From positions 46,171-110,170 of the forward strand of contig JAUNPS010000013.1 of the NCBI GenBank assembly GCA_030536575.1: 64,000 nucleotides of DNA. The letters are read 5' to 3'. The stretch is from Eubacteriales bacterium. Its GTDB lineage: Bacteria; Bacillota; Clostridia; Lachnospirales; Lachnospiraceae. How positions within the stretch are numbered: position 1 is the first letter of the stretch; each line of letters opens with the position of its first letter. Of this stretch, positions 14,684 to 31,346 are shown one piece after another. Made by a program: the position numbers and the translations under genes. The notes under the pieces were generated by a model that saw only the letters and a list, made by a program, of their open reading frames with translations, did no database searches and had not been told where the DNA came from.

Positions 14684-15820
14684 TCAGCCCTTCTCAATAT
14701 AAAACCAGTCGCGCAGAAGCAGCCAGTTCGCCCGGAAAAGCTGCATGATCTGCCAATACCCCGCTCCCCGCAGCCCAAACTCCCGGATCAGCCCGAACTT
14801 CCCTTCCAGGCTCCGCACATCCTCAAACCACACCTCATGGGCGACGCCCTCCCGCTCATACCGGAAAAACGGGGACTGCGCCCGCTCGTCAAACTGGATC
14901 GCCGCGCCGTTTTCGATGGCAATGCGCACGGCCTCGATGTTTCCGATGGTCTGCGCCTTCGTCACGCCCCGCTCATAGGGAAGGGGCCAGTCGTAGCCGT
15001 AATTAGGGATGCCAAGGCTGATCTTTTCCGGAGGGATTTCGGTGACGGCGTATTCGACGACGCGGCGCACCTGGTCTAAAGGGGCGACGGCCATCGGAGG
15101 GCCGTAGGTATATCCCCACTCATACGTCATCAGCAGCACATGATCCGCCGCCTCCCCAATCGCCCGATAATCCTTCCCCTCATACAGCAGTCCTGCCTGC
15201 CCCGCCTCGGTCTTCGGTGCCAGCGCCACCGACACCTGATACCCCTCCGGCCTCAGCGTCTCCGCCATCACCCGCACAAACTCTGAAAACGCATCCCGGT
15301 CTTCCGCCAAAATGTACTCAAAATCAATATCCACGCCCCCATATCCCTTTTCCGGCAGCACCCAGAGCAGTTCCCCGATCAGCCGCTCCCGGTAGGCCGG
15401 ATTCTGGACGACGGAATGAATCAGCATATTGTTAAAATTTCCGTCCAGCCCGAAGGGCGTCAGCGTCAGAATCGGAACCGTCCCAAACCGCCAGGCTTCC
15501 GCGATCATCCAGGTATCGTCCAGCACGGGCGGGATCAGTTCTCCTTCGAAGGTAAAACCGTAGGAAAAGACGGACAATTCGCTAAGAAAGGGCAGGGTCT
15601 GCTCCAGAACCCAGGGACTGATAAACGGGTAGGCGTAGCCATTGCTCCGGATACTGCGGACGGCGTTTCGGCCCCCGGTGGGAATCAGAAGGGCCTGCCC
15701 CACCGCCAGTTCATAGGGGTAGATGAGCTGATTCGCAAAAATGACGGCCTCCGGATCTGCTCCGTAAGCCGCCGCAATCTGATCAATATTGTCCCCATTC
15801 TGCACAACATAAATTTCCAT
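14684..15820 (-). CDS. yaaH: LysM/GH18 spore-germination protein (YaaH/SleL-like), 378 aa
   Basis: One LysM domain occupies residues 1-48 (MEIYVVQNGDNIDQIAAAYG, then AVGQALLIPTG), followed by a GH18 barrel. The GH18 active-site motif is GYGGVDIDFEYIL (DxxDxDxE form, catalytic Glu near residue 170). There is no signal peptide, as in YaaH/SleL, which reach the spore coat and hydrolyse cortex fragments during germination. Most relatives have two LysM domains; only one is seen here. The leader before the ATG contains alternative pairings around CCTGCAT/ATGCAGG (about 15845-15862). It indicates a spore former. Confidence 0.85.
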   Translation of the reverse strand: MEIYVVQNGDNIDQIAAAYGADPEAVIFANQLIYPYELAVGQALLIPTGGRNAVRSIRSNGYAYPFISPWVLEQTLPFLSELSVFSYGFTFEGELIPPVLDDTWMIAEAWRFGTVPILTLTPFGLDGNFNNMLIHSVVQNPAYRERLIGELLWVLPEKGYGGVDIDFEYILAEDRDAFSEFVRVMAETLRPEGYQVSVALAPKTEAGQAGLLYEGKDYRAIGEAADHVLLMTYEWGYTYGPPMAVAPLDQVRRVVEYAVTEIPPEKISLGIPNYGYDWPLPYERGVTKAQTIGNIEAVRIAIENGAAIQFDERAQSPFFRYEREGVAHEVWFEDVRSLEGKFGLIREFGLRGAGYWQIMQLFRANWLLLRDWFYIEKG

Positions 15821-20275: not shown

Positions 20276-21220
20276 TTATTCAGCCAGAAGATCCATGGCT
20301 TCCTGGGTATGCGCCACGTAAAGCTGCTGGATCTCTTCGATCTCGCCAAGGCCGGTCAGGATGCATTCCACTTCGTATCCCGCTGCTTCGAACTGGGATT
20401 TCCAGGAATCTTCCTCATCGCCTGCCATGTCGTTATGGGCGTGGTCGCCTGCTACGACCATCAGGTCTTCCAGGACAACTTTCGTATAATCGCCTTCCGC
20501 TACCAGCGCCAGAACGTCTTCCAGGCTCGGTTCGGCTTCTACCGTACCGATGAAGTAGTTTTCGAATCCGGCTTCGGTCAGGGTTTCCTGCATCTTCGCG
20601 TAAACGCTGTTCGAGTCTGCCTCGGTGCCGTGGCCCATGAAGACGATAGCGGTTTCCCCGTCGTCATATTCCTTCGTCGCGTCGGTGATGGCCGTGGCGA
20701 CGGCCTGGAAATCTTCGTCGGTGGTCAGAAGCGGATTCGCCAGGACAACCTGGTCAAACTGGTCTACATAGGTTTCCAGTTCGTCTTTCAGATCCGTGTA
20801 TTCGTAGCCGTTCATCAGATGGGTGGGCTGTACGACAAGGGTCTTTACGCCGTTTTCGACCGCACGGTCCAGGGCTTCGCCTACGTTGTCGAATTTCTTT
20901 CCGTCGCGCTCAGCCACTTTGTCGATGATGATCTGGCTGGTGAAGCCTCTGCGCACGGAATATTCCGGGAACGCGGCGGCTTCTGCGTCTTCGATGGCGC
21001 CGATGGTGGCCTGACGGTTGTCGTTGTAGCTGGTGCCGAAGCTGACGATCAGGAGTTCTTTTTCGCCGATGTCGTCGCCGTTTTTCGTGTCTTCGTCTGA
21101 GCAGTCGCCGGTGTATTCTTCGGTTTCGGTTTCCTCTGCGAATGTGCCGATGCTTCCCATGGTGAATAAGGTCGCCATCGCGGTGCTGATTGCCAGTGCT
21201 TTGAACAGTTTTCTTCTCAT
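20276..21220 (-). CDS. cbiK: Exported CbiK-type sirohydrochlorin cobaltochelatase, 314 aa
   Basis: First gene of the riboswitch operon; start chosen at 21220 after AAAAGGAGGATTTC. Residues 1-28 are a signal peptide (RRKLFKALAISTAMATLFTM to TFA), so the enzyme acts outside the membrane. The chelatase part begins at about residue 54 with ELLIVSFGTSYNDNRQATIG, the CbiK start, and has VQPTHLMNGYEY (Glu140), FMGHGTEADSNSVY (His197) and VVAGDHAHNDMAGD (His260/262), spaced like the metal-binding His pair and Glu of known CbiK. CbiK inserts cobalt into sirohydrochlorin in the cytoplasm; exported versions are known from Desulfovibrio. Here an uptake or metal-exchange role is more likely than de novo synthesis. 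Confidence 0.88.
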   Translation of the reverse strand: MRRKLFKALAISTAMATLFTMGSIGTFAEETETEEYTGDCSDEDTKNGDDIGEKELLIVSFGTSYNDNRQATIGAIEDAEAAAFPEYSVRRGFTSQIIIDKVAERDGKKFDNVGEALDRAVENGVKTLVVQPTHLMNGYEYTDLKDELETYVDQFDQVVLANPLLTTDEDFQAVATAITDATKEYDDGETAIVFMGHGTEADSNSVYAKMQETLTEAGFENYFIGTVEAEPSLEDVLALVAEGDYTKVVLEDLMVVAGDHAHNDMAGDEEDSWKSQFEAAGYEVECILTGLGEIEEIQQLYVAHTQEAMDLLAE

Positions 21221-21341
21221 AATGAAATCCTCCTTTTGGTTGGGACGTACCTGTGCACGCTCCCCTGATGTATCTGTGAATCTTCCATCAGCAATTTTAA
21301 TGTACGCAGAATATCCGCCCAATCTGCCCAGAAGAAGGAAC

Positions 21342-21375
21342 AAAAAAAATCCTTCTTTTGGCCAAGAAGGATTTT
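21342..21375 (-). terminator. Intrinsic terminator of the cobalamin riboswitch
   Basis: On the minus strand a 10-bp stem (AATCCTTCTT / AAGAAGGATT) with a short GGCCAA-containing loop is followed by eight T bases. It lies 60 bases after the aptamer and 120 bases before cbiK, so ligand binding probably controls transcription read-through. Confidence 0.85.
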
Positions 21376-21424
21376 ATTATCATACATGAATGCTTTGTAC
21401 AACCAATTCCTCGTGGCTCGGAGA

Positions 21425-21605
21425 AGCTCCGCGTACACGACAGGCAGGTTTCCTGGCTTATAGATCAACGCTTGGGCCGCCTTCCCGGATTCCTCCAGTG
21501 GCGTGCGTGGCCCTCGCTCTCTAAATACAGTGACGGGATCGTGCAGGATTCGCACCTGCTTCCCTTTTAACCGGTACGGATGGCGTATCGGCACCTATCG
21601 TTCTT
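21425..21605 (-). ncRNA. Cobalamin riboswitch (B12 aptamer)
   Basis: The minus strand carries the conserved elements in order: ATAGGTGCC, GGTTAAAAGGGAAGCAGGTG + CGAATCCTGC, then CCCGTCACTGT, GCCACTGG, GGGAAGGC, and the B12 box AAGCCAGGAAACCTGCC. Order and spacing are diagnostic. It controls the cbiK-btuFCD-type operon, so the operon responds to cobalamin. Confidence 0.95.
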
Positions 21606-21616
21606 ATTTTGTGAAA

Positions 21617-21645
21617 ATTATATCACATACGCGCGGAAAACACAA
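21617..21645 (-). promoter_or_regulatory. Promoter of the cobalamin-riboswitch operon
   Basis: TTGTGT (21640-21645) and TATAAT (21617-21622) on the minus strand are 17 bases apart; transcription would start at about 21610, just before the aptamer. Confidence 0.8.
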
Positions 21646-21691: not shown

Positions 21692-23236
<1,545 letters not shown>

Positions 23237-24955
23237 TTATTCATAGGCCGACACAAACCGGAGAGCCTTTTTCCAGGCATTCTGGTAGAAGGTTTCCACC
23301 TGCTCCATGCCAAGCTCCTCCGCCTGCGCCTGCATACTTTTCCACAGGGAATCGAATTCCTCTTCGTCTTCTGCGTAGACCATTCTCCAGGAAATGTCCC
23401 GCACGATTTCGCCGATAGCCTCGGCTTTGCTCTTCAGTTCATCGGAAACCACCGGCATCATATTGACCGCCATCGTGGATTTCGCAACCATATCGTTCTG
23501 GTACAGATATTCGGCAATCGTGTCCGTTCCCATCATTTCTCCCACTTCCTGCTGCAAGAGCGTCGTGTCGCTCTCCTGGGTGGACGGCCAGTAGCGGTAG
23601 CTGATCGTATAGCCGTCTTCCATGACCGCCGACGCCTGCAATCCGATGGCATTCAGCAGATCCACCGAATCCTGAAAGCATCCGCCGCCCACTTCTTCCG
23701 GCATCAGATCCTCGCTTTTATTGTTTATGATTTCCCAGCCTTCCTCGGTCACATAAGGTTCCCCATTCGCGTCGTATTCCCAGGTAACGCCTTCCGGCCC
23801 GTTATACAGATAGGCTTCCACCTCCGGGTCGTAGAGCCAGTTCAGGAATTCGCAGGCTTTTTCCGGGTATTTCGTGTTGCTGCTGACGGCGAAGTACCAG
23901 TTTCTTCCGATGGTCTGGTCGGGCGCTTCGTAGATTTTCATATCATCCGCCAGGACGCAGGCGAAGCCGTCCGGGGCCTCGGCATTGTTCACATGGCCGG
24001 AGGAGACGTCGTTATACGTCCCGGTGAGCCAGGAAAACCAGGAAAACAGAATGCGGCCTTCGCTGTATTTTTTCTCCATATTGCTGTAGGTCTGGGTGCG
24101 GGAATCCGGGTCGAGGAGCCCCCGCTGGTTTGCCTCGAAATAAAAATGGAGCGCCCGCCGGTAAAAGCTGTCGTCTTCCAGAATCGACTGCATGGTCAGG
24201 GTGATCACATTCGTCTCCATCAGCGGGGACACATATTCCGTGTCAATCCCATAAAAGAAGGACAGCGTGGCAACTTCCATCGCAGAATACTTATCCCAGT
24301 CGGAAAACAGCGAAAATCCATACACTTTTTCTCCGTTTTCCGTATAGGGCTTCACTTCTATCATCTGTTCTGCCACGTCCAGATAGTCTTCCAGGGTGGT
24401 AATCTGCGGGGAACCCGCTTTTTTGTAGGCGTCCCACTGAAGCATTGGCAGCCAGTTGTAGGCATTGTACGAAACCGGACCAATGGAAACCGGCATCATA
24501 TATAAATGCCCGCTCCCGCCGCTGGCCTGTTCCCTGGTATAGGACACCGCTTTCTTATATTCTTCCGTTTCAAAAATGGACGGCAACAGCTCCTGATACT
24601 CGTTCAGCGGCAGCAGAAGCCCCGCGTCCATCGCCATCTGTGCCTGATCCAGATTCCGGAAGCCCAGAATATCGGGCAATGTCCCGGCTGCAATGTATTG
24701 CTTCAGCTTCTGTTCCACTTCTGACCCGGTAGGCTGAAAATCGATCTGAATCCCGGTATCCTCATAAAGCTTCTGCGCCGCCCAGCCCTCCCAGATTCCG
24801 GAATCCGTGGTCACGGCCTGCTGGATATAGGCCTGGATCATGACCTCCTCTTTCCCGCCTTCGTCCTCGGACGAAGTGGTGCGGCCGCAGCCGGCCAGCA
24901 GGAAGGCGGACAGGAAGAGCAGGGCCGCAGATGCTTGTTTCTTGCTTTTTTTCAA
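23237..24955 (-). CDS. Sugar ABC transporter solute-binding lipoprotein, 572 aa
   Basis: The likely start is TTG at 24955, eight bases after a perfect AAGGAGG; the longer ATG-start frame from 25039 gives an unlikely charged N-terminus before the signal peptide. The signal peptide LKKSKKQASAALLFLSAFLL is followed by the lipobox LLAGC. The mature protein is a large family-1 extracellular binding protein (LplA-like), with DILGFRNLDQAQMAMDAGLL and AFSFQ-free acidic C-terminus. No permease genes adjoin it; GH51 follows and a YesM-type kinase is divergent. It probably uses the permeases encoded at 37-39 kb or elsewhere. Confidence 0.85.
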   Translation of the reverse strand: MKKSKKQASAALLFLSAFLLAGCGRTTSSEDEGGKEEVMIQAYIQQAVTTDSGIWEGWAAQKLYEDTGIQIDFQPTGSEVEQKLKQYIAAGTLPDILGFRNLDQAQMAMDAGLLLPLNEYQELLPSIFETEEYKKAVSYTREQASGGSGHLYMMPVSIGPVSYNAYNWLPMLQWDAYKKAGSPQITTLEDYLDVAEQMIEVKPYTENGEKVYGFSLFSDWDKYSAMEVATLSFFYGIDTEYVSPLMETNVITLTMQSILEDDSFYRRALHFYFEANQRGLLDPDSRTQTYSNMEKKYSEGRILFSWFSWLTGTYNDVSSGHVNNAEAPDGFACVLADDMKIYEAPDQTIGRNWYFAVSSNTKYPEKACEFLNWLYDPEVEAYLYNGPEGVTWEYDANGEPYVTEEGWEIINNKSEDLMPEEVGGGCFQDSVDLLNAIGLQASAVMEDGYTISYRYWPSTQESDTTLLQQEVGEMMGTDTIAEYLYQNDMVAKSTMAVNMMPVVSDELKSKAEAIGEIVRDISWRMVYAEDEEEFDSLWKSMQAQAEELGMEQVETFYQNAWKKALRFVSAYE

Positions 24956-25000
24956 TTGTGCAGCCTCCTTGCTTTTTCGTTTCTCCTCTGCTATACTTTT

Positions 25001-25142
25001 GTTACTGTTCACTCGTACCTCGTTCCAGTAACAATTCACAGGCTCATTTTAAGTTTTGCTTCGCAAAAGAGCCTGCTCACACCTGAATCCCGTTCTTACG
25101 TACCTGAGCAGCTAAGTGCTCAGGTACTGTCTGAACAGTAAC
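25001..25142. promoter_or_regulatory. Nested inverted repeats between divergent binding protein and kinase genes
   Basis: GTTACTGTTCA (25001-25011) is the exact inverse of TGAACAGTAAC (25132-25142), and between them lies a perfect 11-bp hairpin, GTACCTGAGCA (25100-25110) with TGCTCAGGTAC (25117-25127). A further CAGTAAC (25026-25032) pairs with the first arm. These are good candidates for operators in the divergent control region. Confidence 0.5.
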
Positions 25143-25198
25143 ATACTTTTTACATTATAGCAGATACCTTGGAGTTTTCCTACCAAAGAGGCGTATTT

Positions 25199-26995
25199 AT
25201 GATAAAAAAAATAATTTCCGGCTATTATTCGCGGATGCTTCTGCTGTGCATCGCCATTGTCTGTACCGTAACCATTACTTTATTCATCCTCTGCAACAGC
25301 TTAATTGAACAGCGGCAGCGCGCCGAATACCTCAAAAGCTACGACATCGAACTGAATAACCTCGCTTCGATCCTGTCTTCCAAAGAAGATGCCCTGGCCA
25401 ATACCCTGACGCCCGTATTTTCCAGTACCTCCCGCTACCAAACCCTCTGCCGCCTGTACAAAGACCGGAATCTGTCCGTGTCCTCGGTCAGCTATTCGAT
25501 CATCCAGATGATGCGTGAAATCTGCCAGTACGATTCCCATTGCCGCGGCATCCTGCTGCGCACAGGAAACGGCCGGCTCTTCCAGTACAGTCCGGTCTAC
25601 GATACGCTGGTGTCCATCCCTCTGACCCTTACCACCGGGTTTACCTTTACGCCCTACCAGCTTCAGGTGCTTTCCGACGCGCAGTTAGAGGCCCTCAGTC
25701 CCGAATACGAGAAACCATCTGACCATGTTTACGGGCTTTGCAGCACGCTTTTCGACTATCAGGGAACGTCCATGCTGCCGCTGGGCCAGTTGATTGTGCT
25801 TTACACGACTTCCGAATTTGCGAATTCCGTCGCCTCGGCCTATTTGGCGGAAGACGCGCTCTTTACGATTACGGACAAGGATCAGAATATCCTTTATTCT
25901 TCAGATGGGAATTATGAGAGCCTGGAGCACCGGATTTTGCCGAACCTCTCGGAGGGTCTTACGGTTTCCGGAAGTCAGAATCTCGATGGGACGAAACATT
26001 TTTACGCTTCTGTCTGGAATGTGGAATACGATTATCAGACAAGCTATCAGATTCCCGCATCCGGGGTTGCCCAGAGTTCTTCCCGGTTTATCCTGGCGGC
26101 TCTGGCGTCGCTGATCTGCTTTGCCTCGATCCTGCTTTACGTGGTGACGCTGCAGCGCTCCGACCGGAAAATCAAGACCATTCAAACCGGTATGGGCCGG
26201 GTCGGCCAGAACAATCTGGACTACCGCCTTCCCGTCCCCAAGAGCAACGACGAATTCACGCAGATCATCCTGAGCTTTAACCGCATGTGCGACGAACTCC
26301 AGCAAAATGTCGAAAAAGCGTACCTCTACGAAATTTCCCAGAAAAAAGCGGAGCTTTACGCCATGCAGACCAGCATTAACCCGCATTTTCTCTACAATAC
26401 GCTGGAGCAGATCCGCGTTCAGATCATGCAGCGGCGCTACGGGGATGCTTCCCAGATGATCCTTCTGCTCTCCAAAATGTACCGGAACCAGACCCGGCGG
26501 AACCTATACGTTTCCATCGGGGAAGAGCTGAATCTCTGCGAAAACCTGATTAATCTGTATATGTACCGTTTTGGGAATTTTGAGTATGAATTTGTCATCG
26601 ACCATTCGATCAAGATTTACGGGATTCCGAAGAATACGCTGCACCCGCTGATCGAGAATTATTTTACCCACGGGCTAGTACCTGAGCGGGACGATAACCT
26701 TCTGACCGTGTCCGTCCATGCGGTTTGGGAAGGAGAACAGGAATGGCTGGAATTTTCCATAGACGATAACGGCGCTTCGATCTCCGAAGAAGACCTGGCC
26801 GTCCTGGAAGAAAAATTGTCCCAGCCGGTACTGGATCGGAAGGAGGACAATGGATTTGCGCTTTCGAATGTGAATGCCAGGCTGAAGCTGGTGTTTGGGG
26901 AGGCGTCGCGGATTTATCCGTCCAGGGGGACGGATGGGTGCGGGTTCCGGGTGAGGTTCCGGATTCCGCCGGTTTTGCCGGAGAATTTGCAGTAG
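25199..26995 (+). CDS. Sensor histidine kinase, YesM (HPK7) family, 598 aa
   Basis: Start at 25199 (MIKKIISGYYSRML) with a GAGG-type signal. Layout: membrane helix at about residues 12-32, extracellular sensor domain to about 290, second helix (FILAALASLICFASILLYVV, about 295-315), HAMP region (about 320-375), phosphoacceptor His396 in the family signature QTSINPHFLYNTLEQIR, and a C-terminal HATPase (N box HPLIENYFTHG, G2 region NGFALSNVNARL). YesM kinases work with AraC-type YesN regulators to induce carbohydrate transporters. No regulator gene adjoins; the orphan AraC-type regulator at 50848 is a possible partner. Confidence 0.9.
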   Translation: MIKKIISGYYSRMLLLCIAIVCTVTITLFILCNSLIEQRQRAEYLKSYDIELNNLASILSSKEDALANTLTPVFSSTSRYQTLCRLYKDRNLSVSSVSYSIIQMMREICQYDSHCRGILLRTGNGRLFQYSPVYDTLVSIPLTLTTGFTFTPYQLQVLSDAQLEALSPEYEKPSDHVYGLCSTLFDYQGTSMLPLGQLIVLYTTSEFANSVASAYLAEDALFTITDKDQNILYSSDGNYESLEHRILPNLSEGLTVSGSQNLDGTKHFYASVWNVEYDYQTSYQIPASGVAQSSSRFILAALASLICFASILLYVVTLQRSDRKIKTIQTGMGRVGQNNLDYRLPVPKSNDEFTQIILSFNRMCDELQQNVEKAYLYEISQKKAELYAMQTSINPHFLYNTLEQIRVQIMQRRYGDASQMILLLSKMYRNQTRRNLYVSIGEELNLCENLINLYMYRFGNFEYEFVIDHSIKIYGIPKNTLHPLIENYFTHGLVPERDDNLLTVSVHAVWEGEQEWLEFSIDDNGASISEEDLAVLEEKLSQPVLDRKEDNGFALSNVNARLKLVFGEASRIYPSRGTDGCGFRVRFRIPPVLPENLQ

Positions 26996-27020
26996 GGGCG
27001 GCCAGGGCCGCCCCTTTTTC
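26995..27020 (+). terminator. Terminator after the YesM-type kinase
   Basis: GC-rich stem GGGGCGGCC / GGCCGCCCC with a three-base loop followed by TTTTT, starting at the kinase stop codon. It separates convergent genes. Confidence 0.85.
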
Positions 27021-27030
27021 TTGGAACTTT

Positions 27031-29331
27031 TTAATTCAGCGAAAGTGTAACCTCCCGCCCTTCATAATCAACTTCAACCGTCTTCTCGCTTCCATCCTTC
27101 CGGAAGAATTTCACCAGATAATGCGTCGGATAAGAATACTTTCCTTCCGCCGCCCCGATCACCAGCTCCTTCTTCCCGTCGTCGTACCGCACCGGCACCG
27201 CCGCATATTCCCCATCCTGGTAAGCATAATCTTTCCCATTATCGAAATAGCAGGCAAAGGCCCCGTCGGCCCCCTCATAGACCTCCAGCGTATCCGCCGT
27301 CCCGCTCTTTTCACCAGCCATCGAAAGCGGCAGGATCGCCCCGGCCCGCACGAACACCGGCTGCCAGGAGATCGGCGCATCCACGGTCACATACTGTCCG
27401 CCCTGGAAATACATTTTCGTATTTTCCTGATACCAGTCCGCGCCTTTTGGCAGGTAAACCGTCCAGGTCTGCGGCTTGCCAAGATAGGTATCTTCCGGGC
27501 CGTACTCCATAGCTTCCGTCACCGGGCACACCAGGTAGGACGGGCCGTACAGGAATTCCCCGGACAGCTCTTTGACATTGGCATCCGCCGCGAAATCAAA
27601 CATCAAGCTTCGCAGGATCGTATAGTCCTCCGTCTCCACTTTCCGCGCAAGAGAATAGGTATAAGGCAACATTTGATAACGCTTCTGGATATAATTTACA
27701 ATGGTATCGTAGTAGACCGTGCCTTTTTCTCCGAAATTCCACGGCTCCCTGGGCGTGTCCGTCCCATGCGAACGCATTACAGGCAGATACGTTCCAAACT
27801 GCAGCCACCGGGTATACAGCTCCCGGTATCCCTGATCCGCCGTGCCCCGCTCAAACAGCCCGCGCCAGAACCAGGGCGACTCGGCATTCGGATTCCCGCT
27901 CATTCTCCGGTATCCTTGCGTATGCCCCGTAAAGAACGCGCCAATGTCCAGCGTCCAGTACGGAATGCCCGCCATGCACATGCTCTGCCCTTCCGCTACC
28001 TGCTGCCGGAAAACCTCCCAGGTCGCCATAATATCCCCCGACCACAGAACCACGCCGTACTGCTGGATGGAAAGGGAGCCCGACCGGGTCAGGTTCACGA
28101 CCCGCTTTTCCCTGCTCGCCGCAGTCTGATTCTCATAAATGCCTTTCGCATGGGCCAGCGCATAGTTATTCGCTATCCGCGCGTCAAAATACCGGGTCAG
28201 GTTCTCTTTCGCCAGTTCGTACCGGTCTTCCTCGGCCCGCTTTTCCAGCCCGTTCCAGTCCGGCGTGAAGGGTTCCGTGGAATCACACCACCAGGCGTCG
28301 CAGCCGCCGGCTACAAGTTCCCGTTCACATTGCTTCCAGTACAGATCGCGTCCCTTCTCATTAAACGCATCATAAGTCGAAAGATTCGCCAGAAGCGTAC
28401 CCGCTTCCATCATCTCCTGATTATTTTCACAGCCTTTATTCATATTCGGCCAAATCGAGATCATAAACGCAATGTCCTCCGCATGGAGGGCGTCGGTCAT
28501 GCCCTTCAGATCCGGGAACCGCTCTTTATCCACGATCTTATTTCCCCACTTGCCGGACTCCCAGGACTGCCAGTCCAGCACCAGGCAGGAAACCGGAATC
28601 TCCCGCTTTTGAAACTCTCCGGCCGTCTGTAAGATATCCTCCTGGGATACATAGCGCTCCTTGGACTGCACATAGCCGAAGGCCCATCTGGGAAGCATCA
28701 CCGCTTTTCCGGTCAATGTCCGGATTCCGTGGATCAGCTCGTCAAAATTCGCGCCCGTGATCAGGTAATACGCAATCTGATCCACCGCGTCAAACGTCAC
28801 CGTCATCCGGTTGTCTTTTTCCTCGTAAGTCATCAGACAGCCCGCGTCAAACAGGATGGCATACCCTTTTGAGGACAACAGAACCGGCATCGGGATTTTC
28901 ATATTGTTCTGATACAGGTATTCTTTCACATTCCGGTAATTGAATACCCCGTTTTCCTGCTGTCCAAGGCCGTAAATGGCTTCGTCACTGGTGATTTCGA
29001 AAGTAATCGCTGCGGAAAATGCCTCCCCTGTTTTGACCGTAGACGCATTCTCCACAAAGGAACGCTCGCCGTCAATGGTCTTCCGGGTGACAATCTTCGC
29101 TTTTCCGCCCTCAATCTCATATTTAAAAATCTCTCTGGTTTCGAACGCATAGCCAACTTGGCTCAGCAGTTCCTTCCCATCCTTTTCGAAGGTCAGGCGC
29201 TCCGTCTCCTGACCTTGTATACAAAGTACTTCCGGATACGTTTCTTTGTTCACAATGCACATGCCGGGTTCTCTCTTCACACCGTCCGGCGTGCAGACCA
29301 CCCGCGTGATAAATCCTGCTTCTCTTCTCAT
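27031..29331 (-). CDS. Alpha-xylosidase/alpha-glucosidase, GH31 (YicI-like), 766 aa
   Basis: An N-terminal beta-sandwich (to about residue 215) precedes the barrel. Family 31 landmarks: AIYGLGQQENG, VSCLVLDWQSWE, WPNMNKGCENNQEM, the nucleophile Asp in AWWCDSTEPFTPDW, and the acid/base Asp in VLWSGDIMATWEVFRQQV. The WWCDSTEP form is closest to alpha-xylosidases, which remove xylose from xyloglucan oligosaccharides; alpha-glucosidase activity cannot be excluded. No signal peptide. It is the last gene of the minus-strand operon and overlaps the GH42 gene by four bases (ATGA). Confidence 0.88.
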   Translation of the reverse strand: MRREAGFITRVVCTPDGVKREPGMCIVNKETYPEVLCIQGQETERLTFEKDGKELLSQVGYAFETREIFKYEIEGGKAKIVTRKTIDGERSFVENASTVKTGEAFSAAITFEITSDEAIYGLGQQENGVFNYRNVKEYLYQNNMKIPMPVLLSSKGYAILFDAGCLMTYEEKDNRMTVTFDAVDQIAYYLITGANFDELIHGIRTLTGKAVMLPRWAFGYVQSKERYVSQEDILQTAGEFQKREIPVSCLVLDWQSWESGKWGNKIVDKERFPDLKGMTDALHAEDIAFMISIWPNMNKGCENNQEMMEAGTLLANLSTYDAFNEKGRDLYWKQCERELVAGGCDAWWCDSTEPFTPDWNGLEKRAEEDRYELAKENLTRYFDARIANNYALAHAKGIYENQTAASREKRVVNLTRSGSLSIQQYGVVLWSGDIMATWEVFRQQVAEGQSMCMAGIPYWTLDIGAFFTGHTQGYRRMSGNPNAESPWFWRGLFERGTADQGYRELYTRWLQFGTYLPVMRSHGTDTPREPWNFGEKGTVYYDTIVNYIQKRYQMLPYTYSLARKVETEDYTILRSLMFDFAADANVKELSGEFLYGPSYLVCPVTEAMEYGPEDTYLGKPQTWTVYLPKGADWYQENTKMYFQGGQYVTVDAPISWQPVFVRAGAILPLSMAGEKSGTADTLEVYEGADGAFACYFDNGKDYAYQDGEYAAVPVRYDDGKKELVIGAAEGKYSYPTHYLVKFFRKDGSEKTVEVDYEGREVTLSLN

Positions 29332-31346
29332 GATGTCCTCCGCAATACTGCAAAACCATTCCGCTTCATCGGAATTTCTTTTTCATAAACACACCCTGTC
29401 AGATAGTCGTACATGGGCGCTTCCGTCCTCACAACCGTATCCTCAGCCGTGAAATTGAATACAAAATAATACTCTTCGCCTTCCAGCACCCGACGCACCA
29501 CTTCCAGACGGCTTCCGGCCTTCACCGCATTTTTCCGGATTCCGCTCTTTTGGCACAGATAACGCAGCAGCGCTCCCATTGCTTCCTCTTCCAGGTCGGT
29601 TCCCAGGTAGCAGGCCGTTCCTTTTTCGTAATGATTTTCGCTGATGATCATGGAATCCTTTTTGTAATCCGTCACATAGGTTCCAAGAGCCTTCGCCGTC
29701 CCGCCAAGCAGGTCGCACCACATGCCGTCGGCGCTTAAGAACTCTTCGCCGTCCAGATTTAAGCGGATCTGATTGCGGTTCTGCGCGAAAATCGGTTCCA
29801 CCTCTTCGACCGTGACGCCGAAGACGTCGGTCAGTCCGGCCGGGAGCGTGTCGGTATAACCCACATTGTCCCCGTTTTTCACGGAGGTCAGGAAGGTCGC
29901 CAGGAGGGTGCCGCCCTCTGCCACGAAATTCCGGAATTTTTCCCGTTTGCTCTCCTCCAGGACAAAGGCGGAGGGGAGCACCAGGACTTTATATTTCGAG
30001 AAATCGGCGTCGTAACCGATCACGTCGGCATTGTAACCCTGTTCTTCCAAAATCCGGTACAGCCTGCCCGCATAGTCCAGATATTTGAAATCCGGGTCGT
30101 TCACCGGTTTGATGCGGAGGGCCCAGTGCACTGCATAGTCCACGCAGATGGCCACCTGATTGTCAAATCCGGCCTTCTCAAGGGGTTCCAATTTCTTTAA
30201 CAGGGCCGCGGTGTCTTTCATTTCATAATATCTGCGCCGCGGTACGCCGTCCATATCCACGATGGCATAGTTTAACTGCTCGGCCCCGAAGGGGAATGTC
30301 CGGAACTGGAAATGCAGCATCATCTCCGCGCCGTGGGCCAGAGACTGGACGACTGCCTGCTGCAATGCCCCCGGATTTGGCTGCACGCGTCCCGTCCCGC
30401 CGAACTTGTGGCCGCCGCCGGACATGAATTCCATCACCCAGAAGGGCGCGCCCTCTTTGATTCCGCGGGCGAACGCATACGGGAAGGAATCCACGCATGC
30501 GTCCCGCAGTCCCGGATAGAAATCGAATCCGTAGCAGTCCAGATCTTTCGTGCTCTCGTAATAATCAATGCTGTTGGTGGCCAGGCCTGTGCCGTTCGTG
30601 GTCACGGGCTGGTCGGTGCAGCGGTGCAGGATTTCTTCCTGAATTTTCTGATATTCAATCTGGGACTCGCTGGCGAAGCGCTCGAATTCCATCCGCAGGG
30701 TCGGGTTCTCGAAGTACACCGGGAGGGCCTGGACGGCGCTCACCTCGATGGTGTTTACCGGAATGCGGATCTGGTCGAAGCTTTCGTAGTCCTGGCCCCA
30801 GAAGATGTTGCCGCTGCGGCGGTTGTAGGCTTCGATGGTGCCGTATTTTTTCTGAAGCCATTTGCCGAATTTTTCCTGGCAGGCCGGACAGTGGCAGCGG
30901 CCGGAGGCTTCCTGGGCAGGCTCGTTGTCGATCTGGAAGCCGGAGACGTAGGGGTTTTTGCCGAAGCGTTTTCCGATCTCTTCGGTGATTTTGGCGGAAT
31001 AGTCCCGGTAAACGGCGTTGTTATAGCAGTAGAAGCGGCGGCCGCCGAAGGGGCGTTTTTCGCCGCGGTTGTCGACGTAGAGGACTTCCGGGTGCCTGTA
31101 GACCAGCCAGGAGGGCGGGCAGGCTGTGGGGGTGCAGAGAATGCTTTTGATGCCGGCCTGGCCGAGGCGGTTGACGGCGTATTCGAGCCAGGCGAAGTCG
31201 TAGACGCCTTCCTGGGGTTCCATGCGGCACCAGGCGAATTCGCCCATGCGGACGGTGTTGATGCCGGAGTTGATTAAAAGTTCCAGATCGTGTTCTAGGT
31301 CTTCCGGAGTTTTGTGCTCCGGGTAATAAGCGACTCCATAGCGCAT
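29328..31346 (-). CDS. Beta-galactosidase, GH42, 672 aa
   Basis: A complete family 42 enzyme: RYGVAYYPEHKTPEDLEHDL start, acid/base Glu142 in GFQIDNEPAQEA, nucleophile Glu306 in PFWVMEFMSGGG, and the zinc cluster cysteines (Cys107 in RFYCYNN and the CHCPAC group at 151-156). The trimerisation domain and C-terminal beta-sandwich follow. It would remove terminal galactose from imported oligosaccharides in the cytoplasm. Flanked by GH29 (eight bases upstream) and GH31 (four-base overlap), so translation of the three is coupled. A GGAAGGAG ribosome binding site is present. Confidence 0.95.
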   Translation of the reverse strand: MRYGVAYYPEHKTPEDLEHDLELLINSGINTVRMGEFAWCRMEPQEGVYDFAWLEYAVNRLGQAGIKSILCTPTACPPSWLVYRHPEVLYVDNRGEKRPFGGRRFYCYNNAVYRDYSAKITEEIGKRFGKNPYVSGFQIDNEPAQEASGRCHCPACQEKFGKWLQKKYGTIEAYNRRSGNIFWGQDYESFDQIRIPVNTIEVSAVQALPVYFENPTLRMEFERFASESQIEYQKIQEEILHRCTDQPVTTNGTGLATNSIDYYESTKDLDCYGFDFYPGLRDACVDSFPYAFARGIKEGAPFWVMEFMSGGGHKFGGTGRVQPNPGALQQAVVQSLAHGAEMMLHFQFRTFPFGAEQLNYAIVDMDGVPRRRYYEMKDTAALLKKLEPLEKAGFDNQVAICVDYAVHWALRIKPVNDPDFKYLDYAGRLYRILEEQGYNADVIGYDADFSKYKVLVLPSAFVLEESKREKFRNFVAEGGTLLATFLTSVKNGDNVGYTDTLPAGLTDVFGVTVEEVEPIFAQNRNQIRLNLDGEEFLSADGMWCDLLGGTAKALGTYVTDYKKDSMIISENHYEKGTACYLGTDLEEEAMGALLRYLCQKSGIRKNAVKAGSRLEVVRRVLEGEEYYFVFNFTAEDTVVRTEAPMYDYLTGCVYEKEIPMKRNGFAVLRRTS

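Follow-up and report, generated by a model that had tools for sequence, protein, structure and literature searches.

An operon behind a cobalamin riboswitch in a Lachnospiraceae genome combines an exported CbiK-type chelatase, a NEAT-domain protein and a BtuCD-like importer

The CbiK of Salmonella is a cytoplasmic, biosynthetic protein, while the CbiKP proteins of Desulfovibrio and Oleidesulfovibrio are exported; Lobo and others are said to have described CbiKP, in 2017, as a haem-binding protein. To our knowledge, no settled role has been assigned to the exported CbiK proteins described so far. A further protein of interest is FetB of Porphyromonas gingivalis, which we take to be identical with IhtB. 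According to a review, the chelatase FetB swaps the metal bound in porphyrins (PMC13402209), and another source presents IhtB as a putative ferrochelatase (PMC13227078). Regulation by cobalamin is also on record: one paper reports that cbiKP of O. alaskensis has a cobalamin riboswitch nearby (PMC11124144), and another that in Desulfovibrio a single B12 element governs both cbiK-cbiL and btuCDF (PMC545781). Here we analyze a 64,000-nucleotide stretch of a Eubacteriales genome of the family Lachnospiraceae (GCA_030536575.1, contig JAUNPS010000013.1, positions 46,171 to 110,170), referred to below as the window, in which a cobalamin riboswitch precedes genes for an exported CbiK-family chelatase, a NEAT-domain protein and an importer.

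Downstream of the riboswitch there are five co-directional genes on the minus strand. They encode the CbiK-type protein (P0001), the NEAT protein (P0002), a substrate-binding protein (P0003), a permease (P0004) and an ATPase (P0005), with the coordinates given in Table 1. An AGG-containing stretch is located a few bases 5' of each of the five starts, and three of the products, the CbiK-type chelatase, the NEAT protein and the binding protein, carry export signals. With slightly better than even confidence, we read this operon as a B12-repressed system for the acquisition of a corrinoid-type tetrapyrrole at the cell surface, perhaps with metal loading, for import. A ligand from the corrinoid pathway we consider fairly probable, and there seems to be about an even chance that the surface CbiK inserts or exchanges metal rather than only capturing the tetrapyrrole.

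The Rfam scan of the 64 kb window returned a sole match at the gathering score (31.5 bits), to the cobalamin riboswitch family RF00174, and this match spans the full length of the model (positions 1-189 of 189). Given its score and E-value (Table 1), a chance RNA match was rejected. The aptamer extends to 21613, which is 8 bases beyond the 21605 given in the initial annotation of this DNA. That annotation had placed a cobalamin riboswitch, a promoter and a terminator before cbiK, and all three are recovered here. The promoter, which was read by eye, is sigma-70-like and has a TG preceding the -10 hexamer; because its -35 hexamer matches the consensus at only 3 of 6 positions, it was not listed by the promoter scan. 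The terminator, supported by a scan and by folds, consists of a 12 bp stem with 3 G-C pairs and a T run after it. Taken by itself the scan carries little weight, as it reported 13 terminator-like sites in 6.3 kb with 7.2 expected, and the position of this site after the aptamer is the stronger argument. In a leader fold that omits the 3' arm of the terminator, GCCACGAGGA (21417-21408) pairs with TCCTTCTTGGC (21371-21361), a feature absent from the initial annotation. Since this alternative pairing overlaps the 5' arm of the terminator, on/off switching by antitermination is a plausible prediction from the leader folds.

The cbiK gene begins with the ATG at 21220 and stops at 20276 on the minus strand, with AGGAGG ahead of its start; a TTG start at 21343, given in the list of open reading frames, was rejected because the ATG has a good ribosome-binding site. 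The product matches the Pfam family CbiK (PF06180) over model positions 1-261 of 262, with an E-value of 2.5e-82 and a score (Table 1) to be compared with a cut-off of 26.2 bits. It is laid out as a signal peptide of about residues 1-28, an acidic linker and a CbiK domain at residues 54-309. Inspection by eye of the N-terminus, MRRKLFKALAISTAMATLFTMGSIGTFA-EE, identifies a Sec-type signal peptide, and the start MRRKLFKALAISTAMATLFTMGSIGTFAEE, with the acidic linker next, is typical of such signals. The initial annotation had proposed a CbiK-like protein with a signal peptide and with conserved His and Glu residues. Both proposals stand: export-type N-termini recur in 77 of 80 homologues, and Glu140, His197 and His260, which align with residues 89, 145 and 207 of Salmonella CbiK, show no variation in 50 of 50 aligned rows, of which 48 come from the 79 usable loci and two are the window protein and the signal-less paralogue of its genome. 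Against the NCBIfam equivalog for sirohydrochlorin cobaltochelatase (NF047852) P0001 scores 231.1 bits, under the cut-off of 400. Its relatives in the PDB are FetB (9b86), CbiK (1qgo) and a putative chelatase (2xvx), and a search with the family profile places Salmonella CbiK 1qgo best, above 9b86. Thr142 of P0001 is aligned opposite residue 96, a histidine, of the 2xvx chain. We take 2xvx to be the Desulfovibrio CbiKP, and this residue is presumably its haem-ligating His96. An orphan or decaying gene was rejected because the active site and the synteny are both conserved. A cytoplasmic biosynthetic CbiK was rejected for the window, because the protein has a signal peptide, a signal-less paralogue is encoded separately and CbiD lies elsewhere.

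The NEAT domain of P0002 (PF05031, residues 242-340) was detected with the whole protein as query at 35.0 bits, against a cut-off of 32.8; in a six-frame search the score was only 27.3 bits, under this cut-off. N-terminal to it lies a second, related domain, and the two are weakly alike. A NEAT match with an E-value of up to 0.01 was obtained for 39 of 45 aligned members of the P0002 family. In NEAT domains the iron of haem is bound by a tyrosine of a YxxxY motif. At the presumed site, identified by eye without alignment to a known NEAT domain, P0002 possesses H331-x3-Y335. The same placement by eye in the family gives His at the presumed haem-ligand position in 65 of 76 rows and Tyr in 8, while Tyr335 is conserved in 71 of 76. 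Histidine as a ligand would be suited both to haem iron and to corrinoid cobalt.

The remaining three genes specify the importer. The top-ranked NCBIfam model for the permease is BtuC (PRK03784, 210.5 bits, under the cut-off of 334), and that for residues 10-345 of the ATPase is a corrinoid ATP-binding cassette transporter ATPase (PRK09536, for which the score in Table 1 is under the cut-off of 537). The importer genes adjoin the genes for the exported proteins and their top-ranked models are of corrinoid type, in agreement with an earlier statement that cbiK is linked here to uptake rather than to cobalamin synthesis genes. A phmmer search of the PDB with the binding protein returned no match to a solved BtuF and nothing else of use.

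Table 1. Features of the riboswitch leader and the operon (positions in the window).
Feature	Position	Strand	Support
Promoter: TTGTGT (21645-21640), 17-nt spacer, TATAAT (21622-21617)	21617..21645	-	by eye
Cobalamin riboswitch aptamer, RF00174	21426..21613	-	cmscan 112.6 bits, E 2e-27
5' arm of predicted antiterminator, GCCACGAGGA, pairs with 21371-21361	21408..21417	-	leader fold
Intrinsic terminator, expression platform	21346..21375	-	scan and folds
Exported CbiK-family chelatase P0001, 314 aa	20276..21220	-	Pfam CbiK 276.6 bits
Secreted NEAT-domain protein P0002, 347 aa	19168..20211	-	Pfam NEAT 35.0 bits
Substrate-binding protein P0003, 381 aa	18017..19162	-	Pfam Peripla_BP_2 97.4 bits
BtuC-like permease, FecCD family, P0004, 338 aa	16988..18004	-	Pfam FecCD 271 bits
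BtuD-like ATPase with C-terminal extension P0005, 364 aa	15892..16986	-	NCBIfam PRK09536 210.3 bits

The locus was compared with a set of 80 loci homologous to the window cbiK locus. All five parts of the operon are present together in 62 of the 80, and in 51 of the 57 loci with more than 5.5 kb of downstream sequence. A cobalamin riboswitch was located within 1.2 kb upstream of the cbiK homologue in 62 of the 80 loci, and a direct Rfam check of eight riboswitch loci confirmed all eight; in L093 the riboswitch lies about 1.2 kb upstream, just outside the limit, and is not counted among the 62. A hydrophobicity script detected an export-type segment before the CbiK domain in 77 of the 80 homologues, with a loose lipobox pattern in 66, although it began each frame at the first start codon and a few segments may precede the true start. 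The three other loci are L015, which is cut by the end of its contig, L086, which has a broken frame, and L093, which is without a signal. In L073 and L076, the two proteins tested with Pfam, the CbiK protein bears surface-layer (S-layer) homology domains. As a whole, the comparison argues well for a CbiK domain that works outside the membrane. Further, segments similar by BLAST to the NEAT protein of the window are fused in some loci to CbiK (for example L039, L062 and L067-L070) and in others to the binding protein (for example L040, L044, L048, L059 and L074), and these fusions suggest a physical partnership of the parts. One genome, G011, has two exported CbiK-NEAT-importer operons, at L118 (contig C36) and L025 (contig C31), each of them immediately preceded by a cobalamin riboswitch.

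In a tree of 93 CbiK domains, drawn with a midpoint root for display only, the exported proteins form one group with support of 97/98. The window CbiK pairs with L015 (support 100/96). Nested inside the exported group are the signal-less proteins of L093, L116, L120 and L122, and the ten other signal-less rows, out of thirteen signal-less second CbiK, fall outside it. This topology suggests that the exported CbiK is probably an old lineage in which the signal was later lost, and the four nested proteins, some of them on long branches, are possible returns to the cytoplasm. The rows L117, L109, L125, L123, L093, L116 and L121 have long branches and their places are unsure. Two signal-less frames, L119:6654-8117 (487 aa) and L121:4946-6592 (548 aa), are about twice the usual length and are probably fused to something else.

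It was of interest to compare the exported protein with the other chelatases and B12 genes of the same genome, an assembly of 4.8 Mb that is 90.7% complete. CbiD is encoded on contig C38 (L095), in a run of frames that by eye resemble CbiL, F, G, H, J/E/T, A, B and CobD and include no cbiK. A signal-less CbiK is encoded on contig C47 and two CobN proteins on contig C100. Because these three are present, the exported CbiK is not the only chelatase of the window genome; the initial annotation had singled out a complete pathway dependent on this protein alone as the finding that would speak against its view, and the cbi operon and the signal-less CbiK present a different picture. The signal-less gene (L096:8771-9565) is situated, by eye, between sensor kinase and response regulator frames and away from B12 genes. 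Genome-wide riboswitch searches scored a part of the candidates (150 of 431 in the window genome), some with stricter filters. Nine cobalamin riboswitches exceeded the gathering score in the window genome among the candidates scored, and none of those listed is on the contig of L096. The same genome has a second cobalamin-riboswitch chelatase locus at about C100:108436-125551 (L099, C100:117000-136500; L111, C100:105000-118000). It encodes a lipoprotein-like frame without an NCBIfam match, an ATPase whose top model is corrinoid, ChlD- and ChlI-like chelatase subunits, a radical SAM protein and, in a row, two CobN-like proteins; this further chelatase set lies away from the cbi genes.

The genome survey was extended to 50 genomes picked from the 80 loci, most of which are metagenome-assembled and may be incomplete. 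Two CbiK proteins were found in 13 of the 50, the second being, as judged by eye, signal-less in 12 and exported like the first in G011. CobN was found in none of the 50, and the one genome with a CbiX outside a CbiK frame is G062, which is also the one without CbiD. In 37 of the 50 genomes CbiD is present and the only CbiK found is exported. Of these, 21 encode a protein of Met8/CysG type that exceeds the TIGR01470 cut-off and might insert cobalt, and 16 are without one, as judged by a model that could miss divergent precorrin-2 dehydrogenases or ferrochelatases. The 37 include C. asparagiforme, a finished genome with one CbiK and a Met8/CysG match, and A. butyriciproducens, with one CbiK and no such match. 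The non-biosynthetic role proposed initially is supported in the window genome by the separate signal-less CbiK, and is qualified by the 37 relatives, in which the exported protein may have a biosynthetic role.

The following scheme of repression, ligand, chemistry and transport is one that we infer from the observed anatomy of the operon and its riboswitch. When cobalamin is sufficient the aptamer would favour the terminator and the operon would be off. Under a shortage of B12, the cell would display the NEAT and CbiK-type proteins at the external side of its membrane, where they would capture a tetrapyrrole of corrinoid type for delivery to the binding protein and the BtuCD-like importer. 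The surface CbiK would most likely load cobalt into cobalt-less tetrapyrroles, or exchange their metal, so that only useful cobalt tetrapyrrole would be imported. The intact active site suggests that this protein does more than bind.

Several observations weigh against this scheme. NEAT domains are known for haem, and the best single-sequence PDB match of P0001 is the "Heme-binding protein FetB" (9b86, E 6.7e-45). The corrinoid models that rank first for the permease and the ATPase are far under their own cut-offs, and among PDB structures FhuB and HmuU score better against the permease than BtuC does, a preference that would call for caution about the ligand. Pfam matched NEAT in 2 of eight fusion proteins, both under the cut-off, so that the NEAT label on the fusions rests on similarity to the window protein. 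With respect to regulation, 17 of the 18 riboswitch-less loci were scanned directly upstream and gave no match at the Rfam gathering score; the eighteenth is L015, whose contig ends just upstream of the cbiK frame. In L015, L042, L065 and L092 the sequence is cut off close to cbiK. Ample upstream DNA without a riboswitch is present in L038, L040, L041, L044, L048, L072, L073, L075, L076, L089 and L090, and because these make up 11 of the 18, control of the operon by a cobalamin riboswitch is common but not universal. Finally, CbiD is present in 49 of the 50 operon genomes and in 120 of 200 genomes of the window's family (Fisher p 1.3e-8, for related genomes with no correction for kinship and for two sets that differ in taxonomic range), and a pure salvage system should be expected in auxotrophs too.

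Some of these observations would be explained if the operon served the acquisition of haem or a porphyrin, with the NEAT protein taking haem, the CbiK-type protein binding it or swapping its metal as described above for FetB, the importer being of a haem type and B12 control reflecting the general supply of tetrapyrroles. In addition to the NEAT match of P0002, the FetB match of P0001 and the FhuB/HmuU preference of the permease, the PDB matches of the P0002 profile, none of them significant, include 3sik (E 0.19) and 3sz6 (E 0.35), which we assume to be NEAT structures, and the binding protein matches the IsdE model weakly (18.5 bits, cut-off 298.65). This possibility must be set against the cobalamin riboswitch in 62 of 80 loci, the prevalence of His over Tyr (65 and 8 of 76 rows) at a ligand position that was placed by eye, and the presence of Thr142 where CbiKP presumably has its haem-binding His96. 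Because of the riboswitch, haem seems a less likely ligand than a corrinoid, and we consider haem acquisition unlikely. A different possibility is suggested by the 37 genomes with CbiD and only an exported CbiK. In many B12-making clostridia the exported protein may be the cobaltochelatase of the pathway, inserting cobalt into sirohydrochlorin or a related ring, or checking the metal, at the outer face, after which NEAT carriers with the Tyr to His change would return the cobalt tetrapyrrole to the BtuCD-like importer. The 16 genomes without a TIGR01470 match, the single CbiK of C. asparagiforme and of A. butyriciproducens, the lack of CobN in the 50 genomes, the restriction of CbiX outside a CbiK frame to the CbiD-less G062, and the high frequency of CbiD in operon genomes are all as expected from this proposal. 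It is opposed by the signal-less CbiK and the two CobN of the window genome and by the signal-less second CbiK in 12 of the 50 relatives. Further, divergent enzymes may escape TIGR01470, incomplete assemblies may lack genes, and we know of no export of sirohydrochlorin. We judge this proposal to be quite improbable, and we assign a similarly small probability to the notion that the exported chelatase and the NEAT protein mainly trap Co(II) for the B12 pathway, with the ring as a carrier. The riboswitch, the co-occurrence of the operon with CbiD and the intact catalytic His and Glu are in keeping with such cobalt scavenging, but the importer belongs to a corrinoid/siderophore class, which is not a known class of cobalt transporter.

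Weighing these alternatives, we continue to lean toward the acquisition of a corrinoid-type tetrapyrrole at the cell surface. The original suggestion for this locus, extracellular metal insertion, metal removal or tetrapyrrole capture in the course of salvage, is supported in part, namely by export, the importer link, the riboswitch, the active site and the distance from the biosynthetic genes, while insertion, removal and capture are not distinguished from one another by these data.

Two features of the surrounding DNA were noted by eye. Just past the end of the operon, at window positions 14684-15820, there is a frame with LysM and glycoside-hydrolase domains that resembles a spore hydrolase. 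Upstream of the riboswitch, positions 21692-31346 are occupied by mostly minus-strand carbohydrate genes, among them genes for an arabinofuranosidase-like protein, an extracellular binding protein and glycosidases.

The conserved module, in which a B12 riboswitch, NEAT-type proteins and a corrinoid-type importer are found together across Clostridia, offers a clear place to test the role of an extracellular chelatase. Its interest is heightened by the 37 of 50 operon genomes that carry CbiD and show no other CbiK, and it has a bearing on the ways in which corrinoids are acquired and shared among gut bacteria. The data suggest a class of corrinoid-related surface proteins in Gram-positive bacteria, together with a NEAT subgroup in which the metal ligand is altered. 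An exported, riboswitch-linked CbiK is already known, the cbiKP of O. alaskensis being an example (PMC11124144). In the literature searched, no paper was found that joins CbiK to a NEAT domain or a NEAT domain to a cobalamin riboswitch, nor any report of the NEAT partnership, the lipoprotein or S-layer anchoring or the spread in Clostridia; these are weak negatives, most subscription journals being outside the search. CbiK is not mentioned in the available part of a review of C. difficile riboswitches (PMC11477304).

Comparison with the known systems shows both the kinship and the distinctness of this one. It shares with the CbiKP systems the CbiK family, the export signal (read by eye here) and the riboswitch link, and 2xvx is a sequence relative of P0001. 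It differs from them in that the window operon is without cbiL and has a NEAT partner, in the lipoprotein or S-layer anchoring of many homologues, and in having Thr142 where 2xvx has His96. Salmonella CbiK (1qgo) belongs to the same family, is the best match of the profile and has Glu89, His145 and His207 in alignment with the residues of the window protein, which, unlike it, is exported. FetB is the best single-sequence match to P0001, but the profile ranks 1qgo above it, and riboswitch control, a NEAT partner and a BtuCD-like importer set the window system apart from FetB. The importer resembles BtuFCD in consisting of a binding protein, a FecCD permease and an ATPase for which corrinoid models rank first, and is unlike it in that the scores are under the curated cut-offs and the binding protein is without a phmmer match to a solved BtuF. 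Finally, as in Isd-type haem uptake, a NEAT domain is carried by an exported protein whose gene adjoins those of an ABC importer, but here the place presumed by eye to hold the ligand is occupied by His rather than by the Tyr of the motif in 65 of 76 rows.

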